NCBI GenBank assembly: GCA_003140315.1
Contig: PLJS01000313.1
Span: 127 to 39,928, forward strand
Reading direction: 5' to 3'
Length of the DNA: 39,802 nt
Source of the DNA: Hyphomicrobiales bacterium
GTDB taxonomy: Bacteria; Pseudomonadota; Alphaproteobacteria; Rhizobiales; Xanthobacteraceae
Of this stretch, positions 27,100-39,802 are shown in pieces. The position numbers were made by a program, and so were the translations under genes. How positions within the stretch are numbered: the stretch's first letter is position 1; each line of letters starts with the position of its first letter. Below the pieces are notes generated by a model, which was not told the DNA's origin, made no database searches, and worked only from the letters and a program-made list of their open reading frames with translations.

Positions 27100-27189
27100 G
27101 GAGAGGTGGCAGAGTGGTTGAATGCACCGCACTCGAAATGCGGCATACGGGCAACCGTATCGGGGGTTCGAATCCCTCCCTCTCCGCCA
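27100..27189 (+). tRNA. tRNA-Ser (anticodon CGA), CCA encoded
   Basis: ggagaggtggcagagtggttgaatgcaccgcactcgaaatgcggcatacgggcaaccgtatcgggggttcgaatccctccctctccgcca: acceptor ggagagg/cctctcc, anticodon loop ctcgaaa, long variable arm, T-loop ggttcgaatcc. Confidence 0.95.
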
Positions 27190-27289
27190 CGACTTAAGAT
27201 ATTGATATTACTCATGTTTTTACGTTTTCGCCAGGCCGAATTCTCCCGATAATTCCGCGACTTTGCGGCATGTCGCGAGTGTGAGGTTT

Positions 27290-27520
27290 CGCGCAGAGAC
27301 GAATTTGGGCCTTGCTCGTGACGTCGACGCTGCGGTCAAGTTGACGTGTGGCTTTCGTCTGACGAAAACCGGCTTTCCCTATGACGACCTGACACCATAC
27401 GCGCAGGCGTTGTTGGAGACGTTCGGAGTCAAGCGGTGCATGTGGGGCTCGGATTGGCCGTTCTTAAACCCCGATCACCAGCGCCCTGTCCGCTATCAGG
27501 AAGAATACGCGATGCTTAGC
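27290..27520 (+). pseudogene. C-terminal remnant of an amidohydrolase_2 family (TIM-barrel) hydrolase
   Basis: AAVKLTCGFRLTKTGFPYDDLTPYAQALLETFGVKRCMWGSDWPFLNPDHQ resembles the metal-site C-terminal part of the family, without the N-terminal barrel. Confidence 0.7.
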
Positions 27521-27566
27521 GCCCCGACAAAAGCGGGTCGCCCGCGTAAGACGAATACCGACCCCG

Positions 27567-28838
27567 TCAGCTCGCCTTTTTGGCCTGTCGTACACTGCTC
27601 AGAAGCGGGTCGCAAACAAGCACTTTTTTGGCATAGAGCTGACGAATCTCAGCTTCGGTCATGCCGAGCATGTCGCGCAAAATGTCGTCGTTGTGCTCCC
27701 CAAGGCGATCCGCCACGAGCTCGGTTGCCGGCGTCCACCGCGAAAATTTCGCCGCCAGGCCCGGAATATCGAACTCGCCGATGTCGTCATCTTGGACACG
27801 CCGAACCGTCCCTCTCGCGCGCAAATGCGGATGTGCCATCGCCTCGTGCAGGCTCAGAACCGGCGCACAGGGAACACGCTCGGCTTCCAAAGCGGAGATA
27901 GCCGCGTCCCGGCTTGGGAACCTTCCAAGCCACGCCTCGATGATTTCCTTGAGGGCTACGTTATTGTCGCGCCGCGCGCGAGGGTCGCTGAAGCGCTCAT
28001 CTTGCGCGAGCTCCGGCATCTGCATGGCCTTGACCATCTGCGGCCATTGATGCGGGATCACCATGATCGAAACAAACTCGTCACCCTTGCAGCGGAATAC
28101 CCCGGTCGGCCCGCCGTCCGGATGCAGCGAGCCAGCACGCTGCGGGACAAACTGCTTCCCTCGCAGCGACGACTTCGGAATATTGACTTCGTGCATGTTG
28201 AAATAGGTGTCCACAAGCGAGCAGTCGATATGCTGTCCCTCGCCGGTCCGCTCCCGGTGCAGAAGTGCGAAGCCGATTGCCATGGCCGCCGTCACGCCAG
28301 TGGCGCTATCGCTGATGGCGAAGGGTAGCTGCGCCGGTCCGCGATCCGCTTCGCCGATGGCCGCGGTGATGCCGGCGTAGGCGGCGCCCATATAGTCGAA
28401 ACCCGGCTTGCCGCTGAGCGGACCCGTTTGTCCGGCTAGCGAAATCGAGCACATGATCAGGTTGCGATTGATCTTGGACAGCTCTTCATAGCCGAGACCG
28501 CTCCGTGCCATGACGCCTGGCGCGAAATTCTCGACCATGACGTCGATTTTCGGAATGAGGGCATGAACGAGTGCGCGGCCCTGCTCCTGCTTGATGTCGA
28601 CAGCAAGCGACTTCTTCGAGTGATTGTGCTGGAAATAATATGTGCTCTTCGACGATTTCTTCAGCGCCGGATCGCGCGACTTGTCTCCGGCAGAACGCCC
28701 CCGGTCGCCGAAGGGCGCGAGCTCCAACTTGATGACCTCGGCACCAAGCTCTGCGAGAATACGTGTACAGGTCGGCCCGGCGACGAACTGAGTGATATCG
28801 AGGACACGAAACCCTTTAAGCATCGGCAGATCGCGCAT
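27567..28838 (-). CDS. CaiB/BaiF (family III) CoA-transferase
   Basis: LKGFRVLDITQFVAGPTCTRILAELGAEVIKLE...DIKQEQGRALVHALIPKIDVMVENFAPGVMARSGLGYEELSKINRNLIMCSIS; Asp in ISDSATG at the expected catalytic position. Confidence 0.93.
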   Translation of the reverse strand: MRDLPMLKGFRVLDITQFVAGPTCTRILAELGAEVIKLELAPFGDRGRSAGDKSRDPALKKSSKSTYYFQHNHSKKSLAVDIKQEQGRALVHALIPKIDVMVENFAPGVMARSGLGYEELSKINRNLIMCSISLAGQTGPLSGKPGFDYMGAAYAGITAAIGEADRGPAQLPFAISDSATGVTAAMAIGFALLHRERTGEGQHIDCSLVDTYFNMHEVNIPKSSLRGKQFVPQRAGSLHPDGGPTGVFRCKGDEFVSIMVIPHQWPQMVKAMQMPELAQDERFSDPRARRDNNVALKEIIEAWLGRFPSRDAAISALEAERVPCAPVLSLHEAMAHPHLRARGTVRRVQDDDIGEFDIPGLAAKFSRWTPATELVADRLGEHNDDILRDMLGMTEAEIRQLYAKKVLVCDPLLSSVRQAKKAS

Positions 28839-28856
28839 CGTCCCCTCGTCGCCGCG

Positions 28857-29558
28857 TCATCGCGCCTGGAATTGTTGCTCGCCGAAGAGGATGTCCCAGG
28901 ACTCGCCTGAGGGCTTCTTGCGGTTCTTCTCGTGCCGTTCGTGCGCTACCGCCAAGCCGCGCTGCACGGCGGGCCGTGCGCGCACGGCGTTGTACCAGCG
29001 CTGGAGGTTGGGCCACGCCGCGATGTCCTGGCCCTGCCACTTGTGAGGTCTGAGCCACGGATAGACGGCCATATCGGCGATCGAATAGTCCCCGGCGAGG
29101 AACTCCGCCTGCGCCAGCCGCGTATCTAGGACGCGATAGAGCCGCATCGCCTCGCTGGTGTAACGCTCGATCGCATAGGGAATCTGCTCCTTGGCGTAGC
29201 GGCGGAAGTGGTGCGCCTGCCCGAGCATCGGACCGACGCCGCCCATTTGGAACATCAGCCACTGAATGACGTCATAACGCCGGCGCAGATCGGCGGGCAT
29301 GAAGCGCCAGCCGCACTTCTCCGCGAGGTACATCATGATAGCGCCCGACTCGAACAGCGCAAGCGGCCTTCCGTCCGGCGCTTGATGATCGACCAGCGCT
29401 GGAATTTTGTTGTTCGGGCTGATCTTCAGAAAGTCTGGATTGAATCGCTCGCCTTTGCCGATGTGAATCGGGACCACATTGTAGGCGAGCCCCAACTCCT
29501 CGAGCAGGATCGTGATCTTGTATCCGTTAGGCGTCGCCCAAAAATAGAGGTCGAGCAT
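28857..29558 (-). CDS. Glutathione S-transferase (YghU/YfcG, nu-class-like)
   Basis: MLDLYFWATPNGYKITILLEELGLAYNVVPIHIGKGERFNPDFLKISPNNKIPALVDHQAPDGRPLALFESGAIMMYLAEK. Confidence 0.92.
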   Translation of the reverse strand: MLDLYFWATPNGYKITILLEELGLAYNVVPIHIGKGERFNPDFLKISPNNKIPALVDHQAPDGRPLALFESGAIMMYLAEKCGWRFMPADLRRRYDVIQWLMFQMGGVGPMLGQAHHFRRYAKEQIPYAIERYTSEAMRLYRVLDTRLAQAEFLAGDYSIADMAVYPWLRPHKWQGQDIAAWPNLQRWYNAVRARPAVQRGLAVAHERHEKNRKKPSGESWDILFGEQQFQAR

Positions 29559-29568
29559 CGCGATGCCT

Positions 29569-30189
29569 TTACACCGCTCGCTTGAGCGGTTGATCGCGCT
29601 TGAGACCGGCTTCCGTCAGTCGATGCTCAAGCAAATCCTTGCGGTCGTGGCCCCAAAACTGCTCACCTTCGAAGTAGAACATCGGCACGCCGAAGACCTG
29701 ATCGACGACGGCCTCTTCCTGGATGCGCTCGTAGTCCGCTGGGCCTTCGTCGGCCAGATAATCGCGATAGGCCTGTTCCGACAGGCCGAGATTTCCAATG
29801 AGCTGCGCGACCGCATCCGGCTCGTCGGCCGCGAATTCGCGCTTGAAGAACAGATCGAAAGCCTTGTTGCCGTATTCGCGGATCCTGCCGTGCTTTTCGG
29901 CGAACAGGCCGCCGATCAGGGCGGGCTTGGTATCGAAAATCTTCAACGGCCCGCGGATCGTCAGACCGCCGCGCATGTTCGCCCAGCGCCGGGCATCCAT
30001 GTAGGAGTACTTTATTTTATACTCCGAATATTGGCTGCGTTGGCCCTTGCCCTTCAGGCGGAGCTGAAACGGCTTCCACTGCAATCGCACGGAGTATTTG
30101 TCTTCGAGCGCAAAAGCCGGGTCGAAAGCCAGATAGGCATAGGGGCTCTTGAAGTCGGAGTACATCTTTACTTCTTTGCGGTCGTTCAT
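29569..30189 (-). CDS. DsbA-family / 2-hydroxychromene-2-carboxylate isomerase-like protein (kappa-GST fold)
   Basis: MYSDFKSPYAYLAFDPAFALEDKYSVRLQWKPFQLRLKG...YGNKAFDLFFKRE...VFGVPMFYFEGEQFWGHDRKDLLEHRL. Confidence 0.85.
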   Translation of the reverse strand: MNDRKEVKMYSDFKSPYAYLAFDPAFALEDKYSVRLQWKPFQLRLKGKGQRSQYSEYKIKYSYMDARRWANMRGGLTIRGPLKIFDTKPALIGGLFAEKHGRIREYGNKAFDLFFKREFAADEPDAVAQLIGNLGLSEQAYRDYLADEGPADYERIQEEAVVDQVFGVPMFYFEGEQFWGHDRKDLLEHRLTEAGLKRDQPLKRAV

Positions 30190-30264
30190 CGATGCCCCTG
30201 ACTTCGTCCGTCGCTCGCCCAGCCTTGCCCGCACGCATGGCGAACCATCCGGGCCGATGTAGGC

Positions 30265-30300
30265 CCGCATCGGTTCATGCGCAATCTGATACTGATGCGG
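30265..30300. promoter_or_regulatory. Candidate operator: inverted repeat ccgcatc...gatgcgg enclosing ttcatgcg
   Basis: Perfect 7-bp inverted repeat in the intergenic region between divergent 29569-30189(-) and 30593-31510(+) genes. Confidence 0.4.
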
Positions 30301-30592
30301 AGTTCTTATATTGATCTCGCATAAATCGAATCCGGCCTGCGGAAGATCACGACGCAAGTCGGATTTTGCGAGATCGTCTTGAGGGTCCCCTGCATCGATG
30401 CGGAACCTGCATCAAGAATCGTAATTCCTATGGCGTTGACTCGCTATCGGCCCTTTGCAAGGTTGCTGGCGCTCTCGGCTTGCCCTCGATTGTTCTTTGC
30501 GTCGCGGAGCTTGTCGAGGTCGGACGACGACGACATTCTCGCGTTCAGCTTTCTCAATCACGGACGGCACTGACGAGCGAGGCAGCACGTAA

Positions 30593-31510
30593 ATGGACTT
30601 GCCATTCATTGACGCCCACCTTCACCTGTCGCGTGATACGGCACAGGAAAAACTGGTTTATTCCAAACCTGGCGCGGCGGATTCCTGGTTCTGGGCGTCT
30701 CCTGACAAGATCGGCCGGTATCTCGACTGGTTCGGGATGAGCCATGTCGTGTTTCTGAACGTCATGGACACGACGCGAATGACGCGGGCGCGGCTCGCGA
30801 AATCCGGCTCGACGCCTTCTCGGGACGAAATTGATGCGGTTCGCCGCGATATGCAGACTCGTGTGTCGCGGTTCAACGACTGGGGTTGTGAAATCCATCG
30901 TCAGGATCGCCGGCTTGTTCCGTGTGTGTACATCGATCCGGTGCTCTTCGGCGAAGGAGCGATCCCAGAACTCGAGCGCTCGGTCCGCGCCGGCGCAAAG
31001 GGTGTGAAGATGCACCCGGATCTCTCCGGATTTCGCCCCGACGAACGGCAGCTATGGCCGCTGTTTGAGCGGATGCAGGAATTGGACATTCCGGTGGTAT
31101 TCGATACTGGCGCAAGCCGCCATTCTCCGGAAGATCTCGGTCGCCCTGCGCTCTTCGCCGATCTCCTCGAGGCATTTCCTCGGCTCACTGTCGTCTTGGC
31201 CCATCTGGCGAGCGCCTATTGGGACGAACGGATCGATCTCGCGGAACGCTTTCCCAACGTGGTGTTCGACACGGCTGGCGGTTTCAATAACCCGATGTAC
31301 ATGGCGCGTGGAGGACCGAGGGCGCTTCCGGAAACGGATGCTGTCCGCTTGATCCGGAAGATCGGACCACACAGGGTCATGTTCGGGTCAGACGGGCCCG
31401 CTGCCGATCCATTCTGGCAGGCACATCAGCTTGCGCGGCTGCCGATGGAGCGGGCGGAATTGGAGCTGGTGTTGGCCGGAACAGCCAGGCGGGTTTACCG
31501 CCTCGCATGA
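30593..31510 (+). CDS. Amidohydrolase family 2 (TIM-barrel metal-dependent hydrolase/decarboxylase-like)
   Basis: MDLPFIDAHLHLS..., GAKGVKMHPDLSGFRPDERQLWPLFERMQELDIPVVFDTG, HLASAYWDERIDLAERFPNVVFDTAG, GPHRVMFGSDGPAADP. Confidence 0.9.
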   Translation: MDLPFIDAHLHLSRDTAQEKLVYSKPGAADSWFWASPDKIGRYLDWFGMSHVVFLNVMDTTRMTRARLAKSGSTPSRDEIDAVRRDMQTRVSRFNDWGCEIHRQDRRLVPCVYIDPVLFGEGAIPELERSVRAGAKGVKMHPDLSGFRPDERQLWPLFERMQELDIPVVFDTGASRHSPEDLGRPALFADLLEAFPRLTVVLAHLASAYWDERIDLAERFPNVVFDTAGGFNNPMYMARGGPRALPETDAVRLIRKIGPHRVMFGSDGPAADPFWQAHQLARLPMERAELELVLAGTARRVYRLA

Positions 31511-31607
31511 TTGTCGACGTCGCCGCGACTTCGGCTCATCGACACATTTCGGCTCTGGCCAGACTGAACCAGCTTCTTAGCTGTGCGACTCCCGGGCCGC
31601 ATTCGCG

Positions 31608-32558
31608 CTATTTGGACACCGCGCGCGCTCTTTGTTGCTGACTGCGGGTCGCCGCGAAGAATCTCGGCTGAAAAATCTCCAGAAAAGCCCGCGAAGCGGG
31701 CTGGAGCGATCGTTCGGCAAGTCGCAGAACTCCGATGCGGCGCACGATCGCGGGACGCAGCGGCCTCACGGTGATCAACGGATCGGCTATCGGCGGCAAC
31801 GCCGAAACAGGGACGATGGAAATTCCCAATCCGTGCGCTACGAAATCGAACACCGACCCGAATTGATTGATGATGATGCTGTGGTTGAACACCACACCGC
31901 ACTCGCTTGCGACGATGTCGATGGTGCGACGAAGGCCGGATTCGGTAGGCCACGAGATCATGGGCTCGTCGCCGATGTCCTTGAGAGATACGGCCTCGCG
32001 GCTGCTGAGCCGATGCCGCTTCGGCATCACCGCAAAGCACGCCTCGTTAACGACCGGCTCGGCGACGACGCCTTCCGTCAGGCCGGCCGCGTTGCCGATG
32101 CCAAAATCCGCGACACCGCCGCGTACGTCCTCGTGGACCGAGCTCCCCATGCCTTCCCTGATTTGCACATGCATCTTCGGATGCTTCCTGCGGAATGCAA
32201 CCAGGGCGGCCGGAAGAACGTGATGCGATATGGAGATCAGACAGGAGATGATGAGCTGGCCACGCATCTCGCCGTCGAGCGTCCGAACCTTTTGCACCTG
32301 CTGTATCATTTCGCCGAGGAGCCGTTCCGCTGACGGAATGAACTCACGGCCGGCTTCTGTCTGCGATACGCTTCGCGTTCCGCGCGTGAAAAGCTTTACG
32401 CCTAGCATCAACTCGGCCTGCTGAATGATGCGGCTCAAGCCGGGCTGCGACATGCGCAGGTACGACGCAGCGGCGATGAAACTCCCGTAACGCGCGAGCG
32501 CGACCACGGCGCGCAGATGTTTCATCGACAGGTTCGGCGCGTCCTTCAGGTCAAGCAT
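31608..32558 (-). CDS. LysR-family transcriptional regulator
   Basis: MKHLRAVVALARYGSFIAAASYLRMSQPGLSRIIQQAELMLGVKLFTRGTRSVSQTEAGREFI N-terminal wHTH plus substrate-binding domain. Confidence 0.95.
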   Translation of the reverse strand: MLDLKDAPNLSMKHLRAVVALARYGSFIAAASYLRMSQPGLSRIIQQAELMLGVKLFTRGTRSVSQTEAGREFIPSAERLLGEMIQQVQKVRTLDGEMRGQLIISCLISISHHVLPAALVAFRRKHPKMHVQIREGMGSSVHEDVRGGVADFGIGNAAGLTEGVVAEPVVNEACFAVMPKRHRLSSREAVSLKDIGDEPMISWPTESGLRRTIDIVASECGVVFNHSIIINQFGSVFDFVAHGLGISIVPVSALPPIADPLITVRPLRPAIVRRIGVLRLAERSLQPASRAFLEIFQPRFFAATRSQQQRARAVSK

Positions 32559-32575
32559 GACGGAGTCACTTCGTA

Positions 32576-32596
32576 TTCATGCGAAACCCGCATGAA
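32576..32596. promoter_or_regulatory. Candidate LysR operator ttcatgcg-N5-cgcatgaa
   Basis: Perfect 8-bp inverted repeat in the 134-bp divergent region between lysR-type gene and CitE-like gene. Confidence 0.6.
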
Positions 32597-32616
32597 AAGC
32601 CGTAATCCGTATAAGA

Positions 32617-32645
32617 TTGACATCGCTGTGGCCGCTTGTCAAAAT
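32617..32645 (+). promoter_or_regulatory. Candidate sigma70-like promoter (TTGACA-N17-CAAAAT) for the CitE-like operon
   Basis: Consensus -35 and 4/6 -10 at 17-bp spacing upstream of the ATG at 32693. Confidence 0.4.
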
Positions 32646-32692
32646 TTGGCATCAGCTTCCTGCATTGAAATTCTCAAAGAGGTGGTGCTGCA

Positions 32693-33631
32693 ATGGCACG
32701 GTTGCTTCCGCGCAGCTGGTTGTTCGTCCCCGGCGATCGCGCCGATCGAGTCGAAAAGGCGCTGGCGTCCTCCGCCGAGGCGGTGATCATCGACTTTGAG
32801 GATTCGATCCCGCGTGACGCCAAGCTCGCCACCCGCGCCGGTCTTCGCGGAATAATGAAAGGGTCAACCCGGCAGAACGTCTTTGTCCGGCTCAATGAGG
32901 CCACGTCGGAGTGGTTCAAAGACGACGTTCAGGCGCTGGATGGGGTCAACCTCGCGGGCGTACTGCTTCCGATGACGAATTCGGCCGATGAAGTACGCAC
33001 CTTGGCCGAGCTTCTGCAGCGGGTCGACACCGGGCAATGGATCGTGCCGCTTTTGGAGTCCGCGTCCGGCATCTACTTTGCGCGCGAGATTGCACAGTGC
33101 AGCCCTCAGGTGCTCGCGCTGGCGTTTGGCGCCGGCGACTATTCGCTGGAAGTCGGCATTCCCAAGTGGCCGGTCGGAGAACAGTTGGCGTTCCTCGTGC
33201 CACGGGTGACGGTGATCATTGCGTCTCGCGTTGCAAATCTGGCCGGTGCGCTGGATACGCCGACCCCGACCTTTCGCGACCCCGATTCGGTACGGGATCA
33301 ATCGCTGCTCGCTGCTTCGCTGGGGTTCCAGGGAAAGCTCGCCATTCATCCGAACCAGGTTGAAACGATCAACAGCATTTTCAGGCCCGACGCGGCGGCG
33401 TTGAAATACGCGCAGCGGGTCGTCGCGGCCTTCGAGGCGGCGCTCGCGGAAGGGAGGGCCTCGACGTCTGTGGACGGGAAGGTGGTGACCCACACGATCG
33501 CGGAGCAGTCGGCTGGCGTCATCGAGCGCGCGTCGGACAACATCGACGTTGGCCGCGGGCCGACGACCAGCCCACCAGGTGGCGAACCCGTGAATCGCTT
33601 CAAAGCCAGACATCCGGCACCGCGGCAATAG
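32693..33631 (+). CDS. HpcH/HpaI / CitE-like CoA ester lyase
   Basis: LLPRSWLFVPGDRADRVEKALASSAEAVIIDFEDSIPRDAK...VPLLESASGIYFAREIAQCSPQVLALAFGAGDYSLEVGI...GFQGKLAIHPNQVETIN. Confidence 0.93.
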   Translation: MARLLPRSWLFVPGDRADRVEKALASSAEAVIIDFEDSIPRDAKLATRAGLRGIMKGSTRQNVFVRLNEATSEWFKDDVQALDGVNLAGVLLPMTNSADEVRTLAELLQRVDTGQWIVPLLESASGIYFAREIAQCSPQVLALAFGAGDYSLEVGIPKWPVGEQLAFLVPRVTVIIASRVANLAGALDTPTPTFRDPDSVRDQSLLAASLGFQGKLAIHPNQVETINSIFRPDAAALKYAQRVVAAFEAALAEGRASTSVDGKVVTHTIAEQSAGVIERASDNIDVGRGPTTSPPGGEPVNRFKARHPAPRQ

Positions 33632-33638
33632 GTCTCGC

Positions 33639-34883
33639 ATGGACTCCCCCGAACCGCGCGACGCAAACGCTCCCGCCCGCCCGCCGGCTGCCCTCGAGGG
33701 CTTGAGAGTCATCGAGATGGGCCAGCTCATCGCCGGCCCATTCGCCGGCCATCTCCTTGCGGACTTCGGCGCCGATGTCATCAAGGTCGAAATGCCCGGC
33801 GAGGGCGACTCGCTCCGTCAGTGGGGGCAAAATCGCGTACAAGGCCGAACGCTGTGGTGGTCGGTGATGTCCCGCAACAAGCGCTGCGTCACGCTCAATG
33901 TCAGCGTGCCGGAGGGACGGCGGCTGTTGCTGGAGCTCGTCAAAAAGTCGGATGCACTGATCGAGAACTTCCGCCCGGGAACGCTCGAACGCTGGGGACT
34001 ATCTCCCGCCGAGCTGTTCGAAGTGAACCCCAGCCTCGTCATCGTTCGCGTCTCGGGCTTCGGGCAGACCGGCCCGTACGCAAGCCGGGTCGGCTACGCA
34101 AGCGTCGGCGAGGCAATGGGAGGGCTGCGCTATCTCAATGGCTATCCCAATCAGCCTCCGCCGCGAACCGGCGTCTCGTTGGGCGACCCGCTGGCGGGCA
34201 TGTTCGCGACGCTGGGTCTGCTAATGGCGCTGCGCTGGCGAGACCACTCCGGCGCGCGGCGCGGCCAGGTCGTCGATGCTTCCATCATGGAATCTTGCTA
34301 CGCGATGCTGGAAAGCACGATAACGGAGTACGACAAGCTCCGTGTCGTGCGCCAGCCGACCGGTACGGGCCTCAAGAACGTCGTTCCCTCCAACATCTAT
34401 CGCTCGAAAGACGGCAAGTGGATGGTGATCGCGGCCAACGCGGACAATCTCTTTCGCCGCCTCTGCAAGGTGATGCAGCAGCCGGAACTGGCCGACGATC
34501 CCCGCTTCGACTCGCATGCGACGCGCGGCGCCAATGCCGACGCGCTCGACAAGATCATCGCTGACTGGGTCGTCCAGCACGATGCTCAAGAGCTGGATCG
34601 GGTGCTGAACGATGCTGGCGTGGTGTGCGGACCCATCTACACGATCGCCGACATCTACGACGACCCGCATTACGCGGCCCGCGAGATGATCGTGCGCCTC
34701 AAGGATTCCTATTTTGGCGATCTCGCGATGCCTGGCGTGGTTCCAAAGCTTACAGAGAGCCCCGGGACACTTCGTTGGACGGGCCCGCAAGAGCTCGGCG
34801 AACATAACCGCGAGGTCTACGGGGAGCTTCTCGGCCTTTCGAATGATCAGATAACCAAGCTCAAGAGCACTGGCGTTCTCTGA
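33639..34883 (+). CDS. CaiB/BaiF (family III) CoA-transferase
   Basis: LEGLRVIEMGQLIAGPFAGHLLADFGADVIKVEMPGEGDSLRQWGQ...NVSVPEGRRLLLELVKKSDALIENFRPGTLERWGLSP; catalytic-type Asp in SLGDPLAG. Confidence 0.95.
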   Translation: MDSPEPRDANAPARPPAALEGLRVIEMGQLIAGPFAGHLLADFGADVIKVEMPGEGDSLRQWGQNRVQGRTLWWSVMSRNKRCVTLNVSVPEGRRLLLELVKKSDALIENFRPGTLERWGLSPAELFEVNPSLVIVRVSGFGQTGPYASRVGYASVGEAMGGLRYLNGYPNQPPPRTGVSLGDPLAGMFATLGLLMALRWRDHSGARRGQVVDASIMESCYAMLESTITEYDKLRVVRQPTGTGLKNVVPSNIYRSKDGKWMVIAANADNLFRRLCKVMQQPELADDPRFDSHATRGANADALDKIIADWVVQHDAQELDRVLNDAGVVCGPIYTIADIYDDPHYAAREMIVRLKDSYFGDLAMPGVVPKLTESPGTLRWTGPQELGEHNREVYGELLGLSNDQITKLKSTGVL

Positions 34884-34949
34884 GCGATCCGGCATCAAGG
34901 AGTCTGGTTGGGATAAGCGCCGCATCCCCGGGAGGAAAAGGACAATGCC

Positions 34950-35933
34950 ATGATGATACGCAGAAGGCATCTATTGGGCGGCGGCGCGAGCGCAATACTG
35001 TCGTCTTGCTTACCTTTGTCGGCATTTTCCGATACGTATCCCAATAGGCCGATCCAGATACTCATCGGCTTTTCCGCAGGGTCGTCCACCGACGTGTTGA
35101 TGCGCATTGTCGCTCAGAAACTGGGCGAGATGTGGGGACACCATCCGGTCATCGTCAACCGAACCGGCGCGGGCGGCACGACCGCGGCGGCGGCCGTTGC
35201 CAGGGCTAATCCCGATGGTTACACGCTGTATTTTTCGAATGGCGGTCTCGCGACGGGCGCTTCGCTCTATAAGAACTTGTCATACAATTCTCGTACCGAC
35301 TTTGCGCCTGTCGCGTTGGTCGCGCGCATGCCGCACCTCGCGTGCGTGGATCCTGCCTTGCCCGTGAAGTCGATCAGCGACCTCATTGCCCTCGCACGGT
35401 CCAAACAGGGGAGCCTGCTGTTCTCCTCCGCCGGATTCGGCAACTCGGATCACATGGCCGCCGAGCTCTTCCTTCATATGACCAACACCAAGATGGTTCA
35501 TCTGCCCAGCAAGGGAGGACCCGAGGCGCTGTACGACGTCATCCAGCATCGCGCGGCCGTGACTTTTACCGGTCCGCCGATCGGCCTGCCGGCGATTAAA
35601 GTCGGCACTGTCCGTGCGATAGCGGTAACGTCGACCAAGCGCAGTCCGGACCTGCCGGATGTTCCAACAATGGAAGAGGCTGGTGTGGCCGGCTACGAGC
35701 ACACTCAGTGGAACGGGCTATTCGCTCCCGCCGAGACGCCGCCAGAGATCGTCAACAAGCTCAATTCCGATGTCGTGCAGGCACTTGCGGCGAGCGATGT
35801 ACGCAGCCGACTGGACGCAATTGGCGCCGAAAGCCCGGCGATGTCGCCTATGGAATTCAGTCAATTCTTCCGCGGCCAACTGGATAAATGGGAGACGGTG
35901 ATCAAGGTGACCGGTATGAAGCAGATCGAATAG
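34950..35933 (+). CDS. Bug family (TctC-like) tripartite tricarboxylate-type solute-binding protein
   Basis: RRRHLLGG signal, YPNRPIQILIGFSAGSSTDVLMRIVAQKLGEMWGHHPVIVNRTGAGGTTAAAAVARANPDGYTLYFSNGG...VPTMEEAGVAGYEHTQWNGLFAPAETPPEIVNKLN. Confidence 0.95.
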   Translation: MMIRRRHLLGGGASAILSSCLPLSAFSDTYPNRPIQILIGFSAGSSTDVLMRIVAQKLGEMWGHHPVIVNRTGAGGTTAAAAVARANPDGYTLYFSNGGLATGASLYKNLSYNSRTDFAPVALVARMPHLACVDPALPVKSISDLIALARSKQGSLLFSSAGFGNSDHMAAELFLHMTNTKMVHLPSKGGPEALYDVIQHRAAVTFTGPPIGLPAIKVGTVRAIAVTSTKRSPDLPDVPTMEEAGVAGYEHTQWNGLFAPAETPPEIVNKLNSDVVQALAASDVRSRLDAIGAESPAMSPMEFSQFFRGQLDKWETVIKVTGMKQIE

Positions 35934-36095: not shown

Positions 36096-37199
36096 ATGCC
36101 TTCTGTCGGTGACAAGACGATCGCTTCTGAAGGAATGGATGCCCTCAACCTGGGCTTACCGGTAACCATCATAACCGGATTCTTGGGTAGCGGTAAAACC
36201 ACCCTTCTCAATCACATTCTTTCCAATCAAGAGGGATTGAAAACAGCCGTCCTCGTCAATGAATTCGGAGAGATCGGCATCGATGGCGAGCTGATTGTCG
36301 CCACCGACGACAATGTCGTCGAACTCAGCAACGGCTGCGTCTGCTGCACGATCAACGAGGACTTGGTACAGGCGGTTTATAAGATCCTGGAACGCCGGGA
36401 AGCAATTGATTATCTCGTCGTTGAAACCACGGGCTTAGCCGATCCGCTGCCGGTGGCCATGACCTTTTTGGGAACCGAGTTGCGCGGGATGACCCGCCTC
36501 GACTCTATTGTAACTCTGGTCGACTGCGCGAACTACAGCTTGGATTTGTTCAACTCCGACGCGGCCTATAGCCAGATCGTCAACGGCGACGTGATCGTTC
36601 TGAATAAGATTGATCTGGTCGACGAAGCTGTTGTAAATTCGATCGAGACTAAAGTTCGAGATATCACGAAAAGTGCTCGAATCCTGCGCACCAAGAACTC
36701 AAAAGTACCGTTGCCTTTGATTTTGAGCGTCGGCCTATTTGAATCGGAACGCTATTTTGAGGCGGCCGGCGACCACGGGAACCATGTTCATGGGAAAGCT
36801 GAGCATCATCACGAGCACGGCCATGGCCACGACGCCGATCATATTGGTCATCGGCCTAGCCACCTCGAAAACGATGGATTTAGCTCTGTTTCTTTTAAAA
36901 GCGACAAGCCGTTTCATATTGGTAAGTTTCAGCACTTCCTGGAAACACTGGCGCCCCATGAAGTGTTCAGGGCCAAGGGAATCATTTGGTTTAAAGAAAG
37001 CCCTCGGCGCCATATTTTTCACCTGAGCGGCAAGCGCTTTACCTTCGAGACCAGCGAATGGCGGGGAGAAAAACAGACCCAATTGGTGTTGATTGGCCAA
37101 GCGCTGGATCGGCGAACGCTTCACGATCAAATTGAAGAATGCCTGGCCGCACCTGGAGAGACCGAGGTCGCGCAATTGCGAGGCAAGAAGGACCTCTGA
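36096..37199 (+). CDS. CobW/G3E family P-loop GTPase with His-rich segment
   Basis: GLPVTIITGFLGSGKTTLLNHILSNQEGLKTAVLVNEFGEIGIDGELI...ELSNGCVCCTINEDL...VVETTGLADPLPV, His-rich HGNHVHGKAEHHHEHGHGHDADHIGHRPSH, CobW C-terminal domain. Confidence 0.94.
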   Translation: MPSVGDKTIASEGMDALNLGLPVTIITGFLGSGKTTLLNHILSNQEGLKTAVLVNEFGEIGIDGELIVATDDNVVELSNGCVCCTINEDLVQAVYKILERREAIDYLVVETTGLADPLPVAMTFLGTELRGMTRLDSIVTLVDCANYSLDLFNSDAAYSQIVNGDVIVLNKIDLVDEAVVNSIETKVRDITKSARILRTKNSKVPLPLILSVGLFESERYFEAAGDHGNHVHGKAEHHHEHGHGHDADHIGHRPSHLENDGFSSVSFKSDKPFHIGKFQHFLETLAPHEVFRAKGIIWFKESPRRHIFHLSGKRFTFETSEWRGEKQTQLVLIGQALDRRTLHDQIEECLAAPGETEVAQLRGKKDL

Positions 37200-37230: not shown

Positions 37231-37841
37231 TCAGCCAGACGCTCGGGCACCGGGCCTGGAGGCACCGGTCCGCTTGTCGTCCAGACGCGACAGCAGCGTG
37301 TTGGTGTACCAGTTGTTCACAGCGCCGCGCCTGCTCTCCGAGAGCGGTCGTCCGGCTTGAGTGGATCGTCGATGATGATGATGTCGCCGCCGCGACCGGT
37401 CAAAGTCGCCCCCACGGAGGTCGCCATGCGAAAGCCGCGCGCCGTCAGCTCGATCTCGGTCTCGGTGTTCTTCTGGCCGATCCGCGCCTTCGGGAATATG
37501 CGTCGGAACCACGGCGACTCGATCACCGCCCGGAAGTCATTCGCGTGCTTCTTGGCAAGGTCCCCCGAGTAGCTGACGCAGATGATGCGGTGCGTGGGAT
37601 CAAGGCCGAGGACATATGCCTGGAACGCGACCGAGGCCATGATCGACTTGAGCGAACGCGGCGGCAGGTTGATGATCAGTCGGCGGATCGTGCCACGTCG
37701 CACCTGCTCGAGCTTCCAGGCGATCGCCTCGATGTGCCAGGCATCGATGAAGGTCTGGGCGGGGGCAAGCGTCGCAAAGCTCTTGCGCGCGAACGGGCGA
37801 AGGTCCGTCCGCAGAAGCGCATCGAGAATACGCATCGGCAA
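37231..37841 (-). pseudogene. Phage terminase large subunit, frameshifted and truncated
   Basis: N-terminal ATPase part LRRDLRPF-type region...RRLIINLPPRSLKSIMASVAFQAYVLGLDPTHRIICVSYSGDLAKKHANDFRAVIES...GGDIIIIDDPLKPDD; continuation ALSESRRGAVNNWYTNTLLSRLDDKRTGA lies in another frame and then breaks off. Confidence 0.85.
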
Positions 37842-39097: not shown

Positions 39098-39289
39098 ATG
39101 AAAAAGGACGAGGCGAAGCAAGCGCTGCACCAGCTCTTCGGTGATTGGGCCGACGAGACGAAACAGCCGCGCGAGCCGGGCGCCCATCTGAGTTTCTCGG
39201 CATCTCGGCGCTGGCTCAAATCCTCATGCAGGCGGCCGGCCTCAGCGTCGAGGAGCTTGAAGATGACGAGCGCTGAGCTGATTCCGGCG
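39098..39289 (+). pseudogene. Small upstream ORF(s) of the recombinase element, apparently frame-disrupted
   Basis: MKKDEAKQALHQLFGDWADETKQPREPGAHLSFSA... in one frame and FLGISALAQILMQAAGLSVEELEDDER* in another, the latter overlapping the recombinase ATG. Confidence 0.5.
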
Positions 39290-39802
39290 GTCGTCCTCAA
39301 GAGGAAGGCTGTCGTGTATGTGCGCCAGTCGACGCAATCGCAGGTTATGACCAACCTGGAGAGTAAGCGGCGCCAATATGACCTGGTCGATGTCGCCCGC
39401 CAACGCGGTTTTGTCGATGTTGAAATCATCGATGATGATCTCGGCCGCTCGGCAAGCGGAACGGTGGCACGCCCCGGCTTCGACCGCTTGGTCGCATGGC
39501 TGTGCGCCGGCAAGGTCGGCGCCGTTCTATGCTTCGATGCGTCCAGGCTCGCGCGAAACGGTCGCGATTGGCATCACCTGCTCTAATTATGTGGGCTTGT
39601 CGAAGCCCGCGTCATCGATCTCGACGGCGTCTATAATCCGTGTCGGCCAAATGATCGCCTGCTCCCTGGCATGAAAGGCAGTATCAGCGAGTTCGAGCTC
39701 GGCGTGCTGCGCGCGAGAATGCTGGACGCCGCCCGGTCCAAGGCCAGCCGGGGCGAGCTGCGGCTATCGGTTCCGTTCGGCGTATCCCGCCGGCGGCGGC
39801 CG
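39264..39802 (+). pseudogene. Serine recombinase (resolvase/invertase type), interrupted by an in-frame TAA and truncated by the window edge
   Basis: RKAVVYVRQSTQSQVMTNLESKRRQYDLVDVARQRGF...GTVARPGFDRLVAWLCAGKVGAVLCFDASRLARNGRDWHHLL-stop-LCGLVEARVIDLDGVYNPCRPNDRLLPGMKGSISEFELGVLRARM in the same frame. Confidence 0.85.

Follow-up and report, generated by a model that had tools for sequence, protein, structure and literature searches.

A LysR-linked cluster of CoA-transferases and glutathione enzymes in a Hyphomicrobiales bacterium and its relation to a gene module of other Alphaproteobacteria

The DNA analysed here (the window) is a stretch of 39,802 nucleotides from a Hyphomicrobiales bacterium whose genome is a 6.07 Mb draft in 342 contigs. 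A preliminary description made from the sequence had proposed that eight genes at 27567-35933, arranged in two divergent blocks, form an undescribed catabolic cluster combining coenzyme A (CoA) and glutathione chemistry. Calling of open reading frames (ORFs) and Pfam profiles confirmed all eight as intact ORFs of the expected families. Half of the cluster is an apparently undescribed module common to many bacteria of land and ocean. A single LysR-type regulator, with two promoter sites that are nearly identical, appears to tie the whole cluster together. The genes and predicted promoters are as follows.

27567..28838, minus strand: CaiB1, class III (CaiB/BaiF, formyl-CoA-transferase-like) CoA-transferase (Pfam CoA_transf_3, 345.8 bits)
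28857..29558, minus strand: Nu-class (YfcG-like) glutathione transferase (GST), candidate glutathione lyase (structure matches, motifs)
29569..30189, minus strand: K, HCCA-isomerase/kappa-GST-like protein of the DsbA superfamily without CXXC (profile search, AlphaFold2 (AF2) model, tree)
30398..30440, plus strand: predicted LysR-type promoter 2, between K (minus) and AH2 (plus) (sequence pattern)
30593..31510, plus strand: AH2, amidohydrolase_2 of the metal-dependent hydrolase/decarboxylase superfamily, lineage-specific (Pfam Amidohydro_2, 125 bits)
31608..32558, minus strand: LysR-type regulator, orthologous to the LysR found in the conserved module (Pfam, identity to relatives)
32579..32621, plus strand: predicted LysR-type promoter 1, between LysR (minus) and CitE (plus) (sequence pattern)
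32693..33631, plus strand: CitE-like (HpcH/HpaI) acyl-CoA lyase (Pfam HpcH_HpaI, 108.6 bits)
33639..34883, plus strand: CaiB2, second class III CoA-transferase (Pfam CoA_transf_3, 408 bits)
34950..35933, plus strand: Bug, TctC-type periplasmic carboxylate-binding protein (Pfam TctC, 188.6 bits)

Glutathione and CoA enzymes of the minus-strand block

K belongs to the HCCA isomerase/kappa GST family. Its profile matches in hmmsearch include 3fz5 (8.8e-21) and 2imd (1e-18), and its AF2 model (pLDDT 80.6) retrieved HCCA isomerase as the top Foldseek hit, followed by FrnE and kappa GST. Like NahD and the kappa-class GSTs, K has this fold, lacks CXXC, carries a serine in a D-x-x-S-P motif and has an FGVP...WG-x-DR region. 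Unlike them it lies on a very long separate stem and is tied to CoA-transferases rather than to naphthalene genes; the K clade stands apart from NahD with support of 97/95 and a stem of 4.4 changes per site, and the tree gave no orthology of K to NahD-type enzymes. CXXC is missing in 33 of 33 K family members, and all of them have a D-[FY]-K-S-P motif. Because of these two features a glutathione-dependent role probably suits K better than disulfide exchange, and a role as thiol-disulfide oxidoreductase was rejected on the missing CXXC. In the earlier label "HCCA-isomerase/DsbA-like", the part "DsbA-like" misleads, since K has no CXXC and its place is among the HCCA isomerases and kappa GSTs. 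The start of K is the ATG at 30189, from which relatives align; a longer ORF reaching 30357 is unsupported by their alignments.

The closest solved structures of the window GST include YfcG and other Nu-class-type GSTs. The glutathione-binding motifs TPNG, NKIPA and FESGA are common to the window GST, YfcG and StyJ, a GST of styrene degradation. Residues T9/N11, K51/I52 and E70/S71 align with YfcG, with the Thr/Asn pair and the glutathione contacts kept (contacts as listed in PMC5892560, numbering transferred by motif). All five Nu-class GSTs tested with a glutathionyl ketone had glutathione lyase activity with formation of glutathione disulfide (GSSG), and a carbonyl-stabilised enolate was proposed for this reaction (PMC5892560). 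The window GST resembles these lyases, among them NaGSTNu and YfcG, in the three motifs, and lyase activity is known for several members (PMC5892560), but their known substrates are alpha-glutathionyl ketones whereas that proposed for the window GST would be a glutathionyl acyl-CoA.

The catalytic Asp is kept in the alignment of CaiB1, CaiB2 and CaiBx, a CoA-transferase encoded beside K in relatives, and all three belong to the class III CoA-transferases. An enolate is stabilised poorly by a carboxylate and well by a CoA thioester. Stabilisation by the thioester would therefore give a chemical reason for pairing a Nu-class GST with a CoA-transferase.

The conserved module and its regulator

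A named genome collection was scanned for K, which gave 32 loci (numbered with the prefix L below) in which genes were called with a codon-usage score. K is present in all 32, CaiB1 in 30, and GST and CaiBx in 21 each; LysR was found in 16 of 32 loci by ORF calls and in 17 of 32 by tblastn. The typical arrangement runs from a divergent LysR through CaiBx and, in some lineages, a transporter gene to K, GST and CaiB1, with intergenic gaps mostly of a few to about 60 bp. The hosts belong to several families and comprise Bradyrhizobium, Methylobacterium, Enterovirga, Oceanibaculum, Magnetovibrio, metagenome-assembled genomes of Pseudolabrys, and SAR116/Puniceispirillum. Among 250 genomes of the window's own family K occurs sporadically, at 62-82% identity and with CaiB1 nearby every time.

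The trees place CaiB1, CaiBx and K in one well-supported, long-stemmed clade each. The CaiB1 and K of the window fall inside these clades, and CaiB1 is monophyletic (100/100). The window LysR is 73% identical to the LysR beside K/CaiBx in L025, 69% in L026, 61% in L055 and 56% in L029, and its identity declines across loci in parallel with that of K. This co-occurrence, clade membership and series of LysR identities indicate, at the level of sequence, that CaiB1, GST, K and LysR are an inherited unit orthologous to the alphaproteobacterial module. Synteny of the cluster beyond close relatives was thus found for the minus-strand block, for LysR and for a CaiB family missing from the window, but not for all eight families together.

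In many loci the operon contains or adjoins a transporter gene, whose type differs by lineage: TRAP DctP/DctM in L029, an ABC system with Peripla_BP_6 in Bradyrhizobium, an oligopeptide ABC system in L026, MFS in SAR116 and L035, and Bug in L034/L035 and the window. Downstream genes encode enoyl-CoA hydratase in L030, L034 and L037 and acyl-CoA dehydrogenase in L034. Because transporters and these two enzymes adjoin the module, its surroundings point to acid import and CoA-linked oxidation as the likely context. At L038 (8300-11900) and L040 (6605-10500) a GST of another subtype, near StyJ in the tree on long branches, precedes K, and a nitronate monooxygenase/FabK-like gene replaces CaiBx. 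The module copies of SAR116 are flanked in L043 (4599-7192, 12620-14284) by genes for an M19 dipeptidase, a 3-hydroxyisobutyrate-dehydrogenase-like protein and a thiamine pyrophosphate enzyme; these neighbours are conserved across SAR116 loci and possibly belong to the same pathway there. Some copies are decayed or misassembled, with GST/CaiB1 truncated in L041 (10001-11240) and CaiB1 split over two frames in L035 (4000-5180).

The LysR of the window has HTH_1 and LysR_substrate domains, and its divergent promoter contains the T-N11-A palindrome ATGCG-AAACC-CGCAT at 32579-32593. The palindromes ATGCGGAACCTGCAT at 30398 and ATGCGAAACCCGCAT at 32579 are each followed, at equal spacing, by CGTAATYCNTAT and TTGAC. 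In promoter 2 the three parts lie at 30398-30412, 30420-30431 (CGTAATTCCTAT) and 30436-30440, and the -35-like part points towards AH2. In promoter 1 they lie at 32579-32593, 32601-32612 (CGTAATCCGTAT) and 32617-32621. The genome contains just two copies of the composite pattern (ATGCGNAACCNGCAT + CGTAATYCNTAT + TTGAC), one before AH2/K and the other before CitE. With three mismatches allowed, the palindrome plus CGTAATYCNTAT still had only these two genome matches, and a reversed-pattern control had none. The best ungapped identity over 46 bases between the two intergenic regions is 32, compared with at most 29 in 1000 Markov simulations.

The same architecture stands before CaiBx, beside the orthologous LysR, in L025 and L026, and weaker versions were found in L029, L034 and L055. 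Two of these loci, L029 and L055, have K apart from CaiBx, and there K too is immediately preceded by a box. Over all loci, the 15-base core, when as many as three mismatches are allowed, occurred 13 times in 8.15 kb of operon-upstream sequence and 174 times in 568 kb, making it about five times denser upstream of operons. The two near-identical, genome-unique predicted LysR promoters speak for shared regulation of the two blocks.

The local part of the cluster and its island setting

The genes citE-caiB2-bug are divergent from LysR and occupy the position that caiBx has in relatives. CaiBx itself is absent from the window, and its best match in the genome reaches 36%. CaiB2 grouped with unrelated paralogues and is an orthologue of neither CaiBx nor CaiB1; its candidacy as CaiBx orthologue was rejected on its identity of about 32% and its different clade. 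CitE can be aligned along its full length with the CitE/acyl-CoA lyases 1sgj and 8khl. It had no match at E<=1e-60 in the 250 family genomes and none at 1e-47 in a phylum sample, and its best relatives in a class sample are 36-38% identical. AH2 had no match at 1e-40 in the 250 family genomes, and its best relatives in the class sample are 32-36% identical. Co-occurrence of all eight families across genomes, which had been suggested as a check, was consequently not seen in the family and class samples, where CitE and AH2 have no close relatives, and the reading as one conserved unit of eight families was rejected.

Two further features adjoin the cluster on its left side.

27100..27189, plus strand: tRNA-Ser(CGA), bounding the variable region on its left (ARAGORN)
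27263..27559, plus strand: C-terminal remnant of an amidohydrolase_2 gene other than AH2 (Pfam Amidohydro_2, profile 205-256 of 289, E 7.7e-10)

This remnant and the LysR-type promoter sites at 30398-30440 and 32579-32621 were additions to the preliminary description. Coming after the tRNA gene, the remnant is probably an insertion or decay scar. In the stretches compared, two congeners have the tRNA-Ser(CGA) in common with the window and share nothing beyond it. On the right side there are fragments of a phage terminase large subunit (37317-37841, minus) and of a serine integrase/resolvase (39098-39586, plus), which near the contig end suggest a decayed prophage or an island border. The GC content of the region is 0.60-0.62 compared with 0.66 to its left, and no direct repeat of the tRNA end was found as an island border within the window. 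A CobW-family GTPase gene also lies on this side (36096-37199, plus); its best NCBIfam match is ZigA, below the cut-off, and it has a His-rich stretch and a GC content of 0.52, well under its surroundings.

The tRNA-Ser and remnant on the left, the phage-type fragments on the right, the difference from congeners and the GC shift fit an island beside tRNA-Ser that carries a rearranged copy of the module. AH2, CitE, CaiB2 and Bug, for which the genomes sampled gave no near relatives, look like a local replacement inside this island.

Proposed pathway and comparison with known systems

We propose that the cluster is a single LysR-controlled regulon for the use of an imported carboxylic acid, a reading to which we give even weight for and against. 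The best reading of the chemistry is that the acid would be handled through CoA thioester and glutathione reactions, with a logic resembling that of IsoG/IsoJ of isoprene and StyG/StyJ of styrene degradation but without their oxygenases, followed by cleavage by the CitE-like lyase. LysR would bind the palindromes at 30398-30412 and 32579-32593 and activate both transcription units in the presence of the substrate. Because a carboxylate-binding protein is encoded, the compound taken up is probably an acid, which Bug would capture together with a permease encoded elsewhere. A class III CoA-transferase, CaiB2 here and CaiBx in relatives, would form the CoA thioester. K might carry out a glutathione-dependent step, in which glutathione either adds to an electrophilic carbon or forms a transient adduct that permits cis-trans isomerisation. 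CaiB1 could make or move the CoA thioester of the acid thus linked to glutathione or isomerised. The Nu-class GST would then take off glutathione as GSSG, with the thioester carbonyl stabilising the resulting enolate. The CitE-like lyase may finally perform retro-Claisen cleavage of the resulting hydroxyacyl-CoA, replacing the enoyl-CoA hydratase/acyl-CoA dehydrogenase genes seen beside the module in some relatives, and AH2 may hydrolyse or decarboxylate a side product or precursor.

A wider proposal is put forward more tentatively. K, the Nu-class GST and two class III CoA-transferases may constitute an undescribed catabolic pathway that is widespread in Alphaproteobacteria, including marine SAR116, and in which glutathione is added to, removed from or used to isomerise an acyl-CoA or acid. 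On this view K would be the founding member of a new functional class, that of kappa-type glutathione enzymes linked to CoA, and the window would be a variant with a CitE lyase ending in place of the CaiBx/transporter part.

Several points weigh against these proposals. In roughly one locus in three the operon lacks GST, although the GST-less genomes that were checked carry other Nu-class-like GSTs. CaiBx, found in 21 loci, is missing from the genome of the window, which therefore may not run the same pathway as its CaiBx-bearing relatives. By the searches above, AH2 and CitE are not conserved partners of the module. No clear promoter match was found in SAR116 and most Bradyrhizobium loci, and the uniqueness of the promoter in the genome is partly by construction, because the two window sites served to define the pattern; the independent support comes from the sites in relatives. 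K may have free acids as its substrates, or may leave the CoA ester untouched altogether, and the StyJ-position protein of the styrene cluster does not group with the window GST in the tree.

It is possible, if rather doubtful, that the island holds two functionally separate modules, with the minus-strand block as the conserved glutathione/CoA module and with AH2 and citE-caiB2-bug serving another acid, the LysR promoter having been copied or captured. The lack of conserved association of AH2 and CitE with the module, the place of CaiB2 among unrelated paralogues, and a region bounded by tRNA-Ser and by terminase and integrase remnants and missing there in congeners all speak for this. The presence of the same LysR-type promoter before both units and nowhere else in the genome argues for the single regulon instead, as does the fact that in relatives, too, a second CaiB stands beside LysR and the operon includes a transporter part.

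A glutathione-dependent cis-trans isomerase pathway is another unlikely though possible reading. K would isomerise an unsaturated di- or oxo-acid, the CaiB enzymes would activate the trans isomer, and the GST would be auxiliary, with no stable adduct; this overlaps the preferred reading and differs from it in the role of the GST. NahD and the maleylpyruvate isomerases carry out glutathione-dependent cis-trans isomerisation. The nearest solved relatives of K are HCCA isomerases, and the pair K-CaiB1 is kept in the loci whose operon lacks GST. However, K is far from the characterised HCCA isomerases in the tree, and the different GST subtype beside K in L038/L040 suggests that a GST was recruited more than once and has work to do.

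The remaining two alternatives are improbable. Nu-class GSTs such as YfcG are linked to oxidative stress (PMC5892560), as a glutathione-based stress or detoxification cluster would have it, but two CoA-transferases, binding proteins or transporters, and neighbouring enoyl-CoA hydratase and acyl-CoA dehydrogenase point to assimilation of a carbon source. A known C5-dicarboxylate route through itaconate, mesaconate or citramalate, which the preliminary description had offered as a guess, is as published a sequence of transferase, hydratase and lyase (PMC12290011); the CitE-like lyase does score best against RipC and both CaiB proteins weakly match mesaconate/glutarate CoA-transferase models, but the scores are far under the equivalog cut-offs (147 bits against 375 for RipC, 207-211 against 700 for mesaconate CoA-transferase) and the cluster genes include no itaconyl-/mesaconyl-CoA hydratase.

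The comparisons with the itaconate, isoprene and styrene pathways did not place the cluster in any of them, and the view of the cluster as a catabolic CoA/glutathione set outside the named pathways is supported. A search of the available literature found no paper joining HCCA isomerase, CoA-transferase, GST and SAR116 and none joining HCCA isomerase with CaiB or formyl-CoA transferase, while HCCA isomerase together with CoA transferase gave only three papers on PAH/aromatics; this does not prove that no such paper exists. To our knowledge, chemistry combining glutathione and a CoA-transferase is known only from a few oxygenase-initiated pathways, those of isoprene and styrene. An oxygenase-free module, often with acid transporters and ranging from Bradyrhizobium to marine SAR116, would offer a simpler place to study it, and would give names to genes usually annotated merely as "CoA transferase", "DsbA family protein" or "glutathione S-transferase". 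The predicted LysR operator would be a direct handle on the inducer and hence on the substrate.

Among known systems, a plasmid operon of Sphingobium sp. TomTYG65 (L086, AP027332.1 148863-165558) encodes a P450, alcohol and aldehyde dehydrogenases, two CoA ligases, a Nu-type GST and an HCCA isomerase-like protein. It resembles the window in that the GST gene adjoins the HCCA-isomerase-like gene after CoA-activating enzymes, with an amidohydrolase near, but its CoA enzymes are ligases and not transferases and its isomerase is outside the K clade. The isoprene iso cluster shares with the window a class III CoA-transferase and a GST, a LysR gene upstream in Gram-negative degraders, and a proposed CoA activation before glutathione removal. 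IsoG and IsoJ are the published, predicted precedent for this order (PMC9804861, PMC10057887), and their exact roles are still called uncertain. The iso cluster also has the isoABCDEF monooxygenase, IsoI, IsoH and AldH, all absent here (neither an IsoI-type GST nor an IsoH dehydrogenase nor a monooxygenase occurs at 27567-35933), whereas the window adds K, a second CaiB and a carboxylate-binding protein.

In the glutathione-dependent styrene cluster of Gordonia rubripertincta CWB2 (styGHIJ), the names StyG and StyJ were assigned by position and family, not from the record. Over 231 amino acids the window GST and the StyJ-position protein share 44.6% identity. The protein at the StyG position belongs to the class III CoA-transferases, and its best match is CaiB1 (32.8%). 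The GST identity was dropped as a special link, as other Nu-type GSTs score alike, and a specific StyJ orthology of the window GST is unsupported by the tree. StyG likewise falls outside the CaiB1 clade, and there is no styAB here. Because the trees give no specific grouping of StyG with CaiB1 or of StyJ with the GST, the likeness to the isoprene and styrene clusters, judged by sequence, is one of logic and not of membership, with only two of the needed parts alike.

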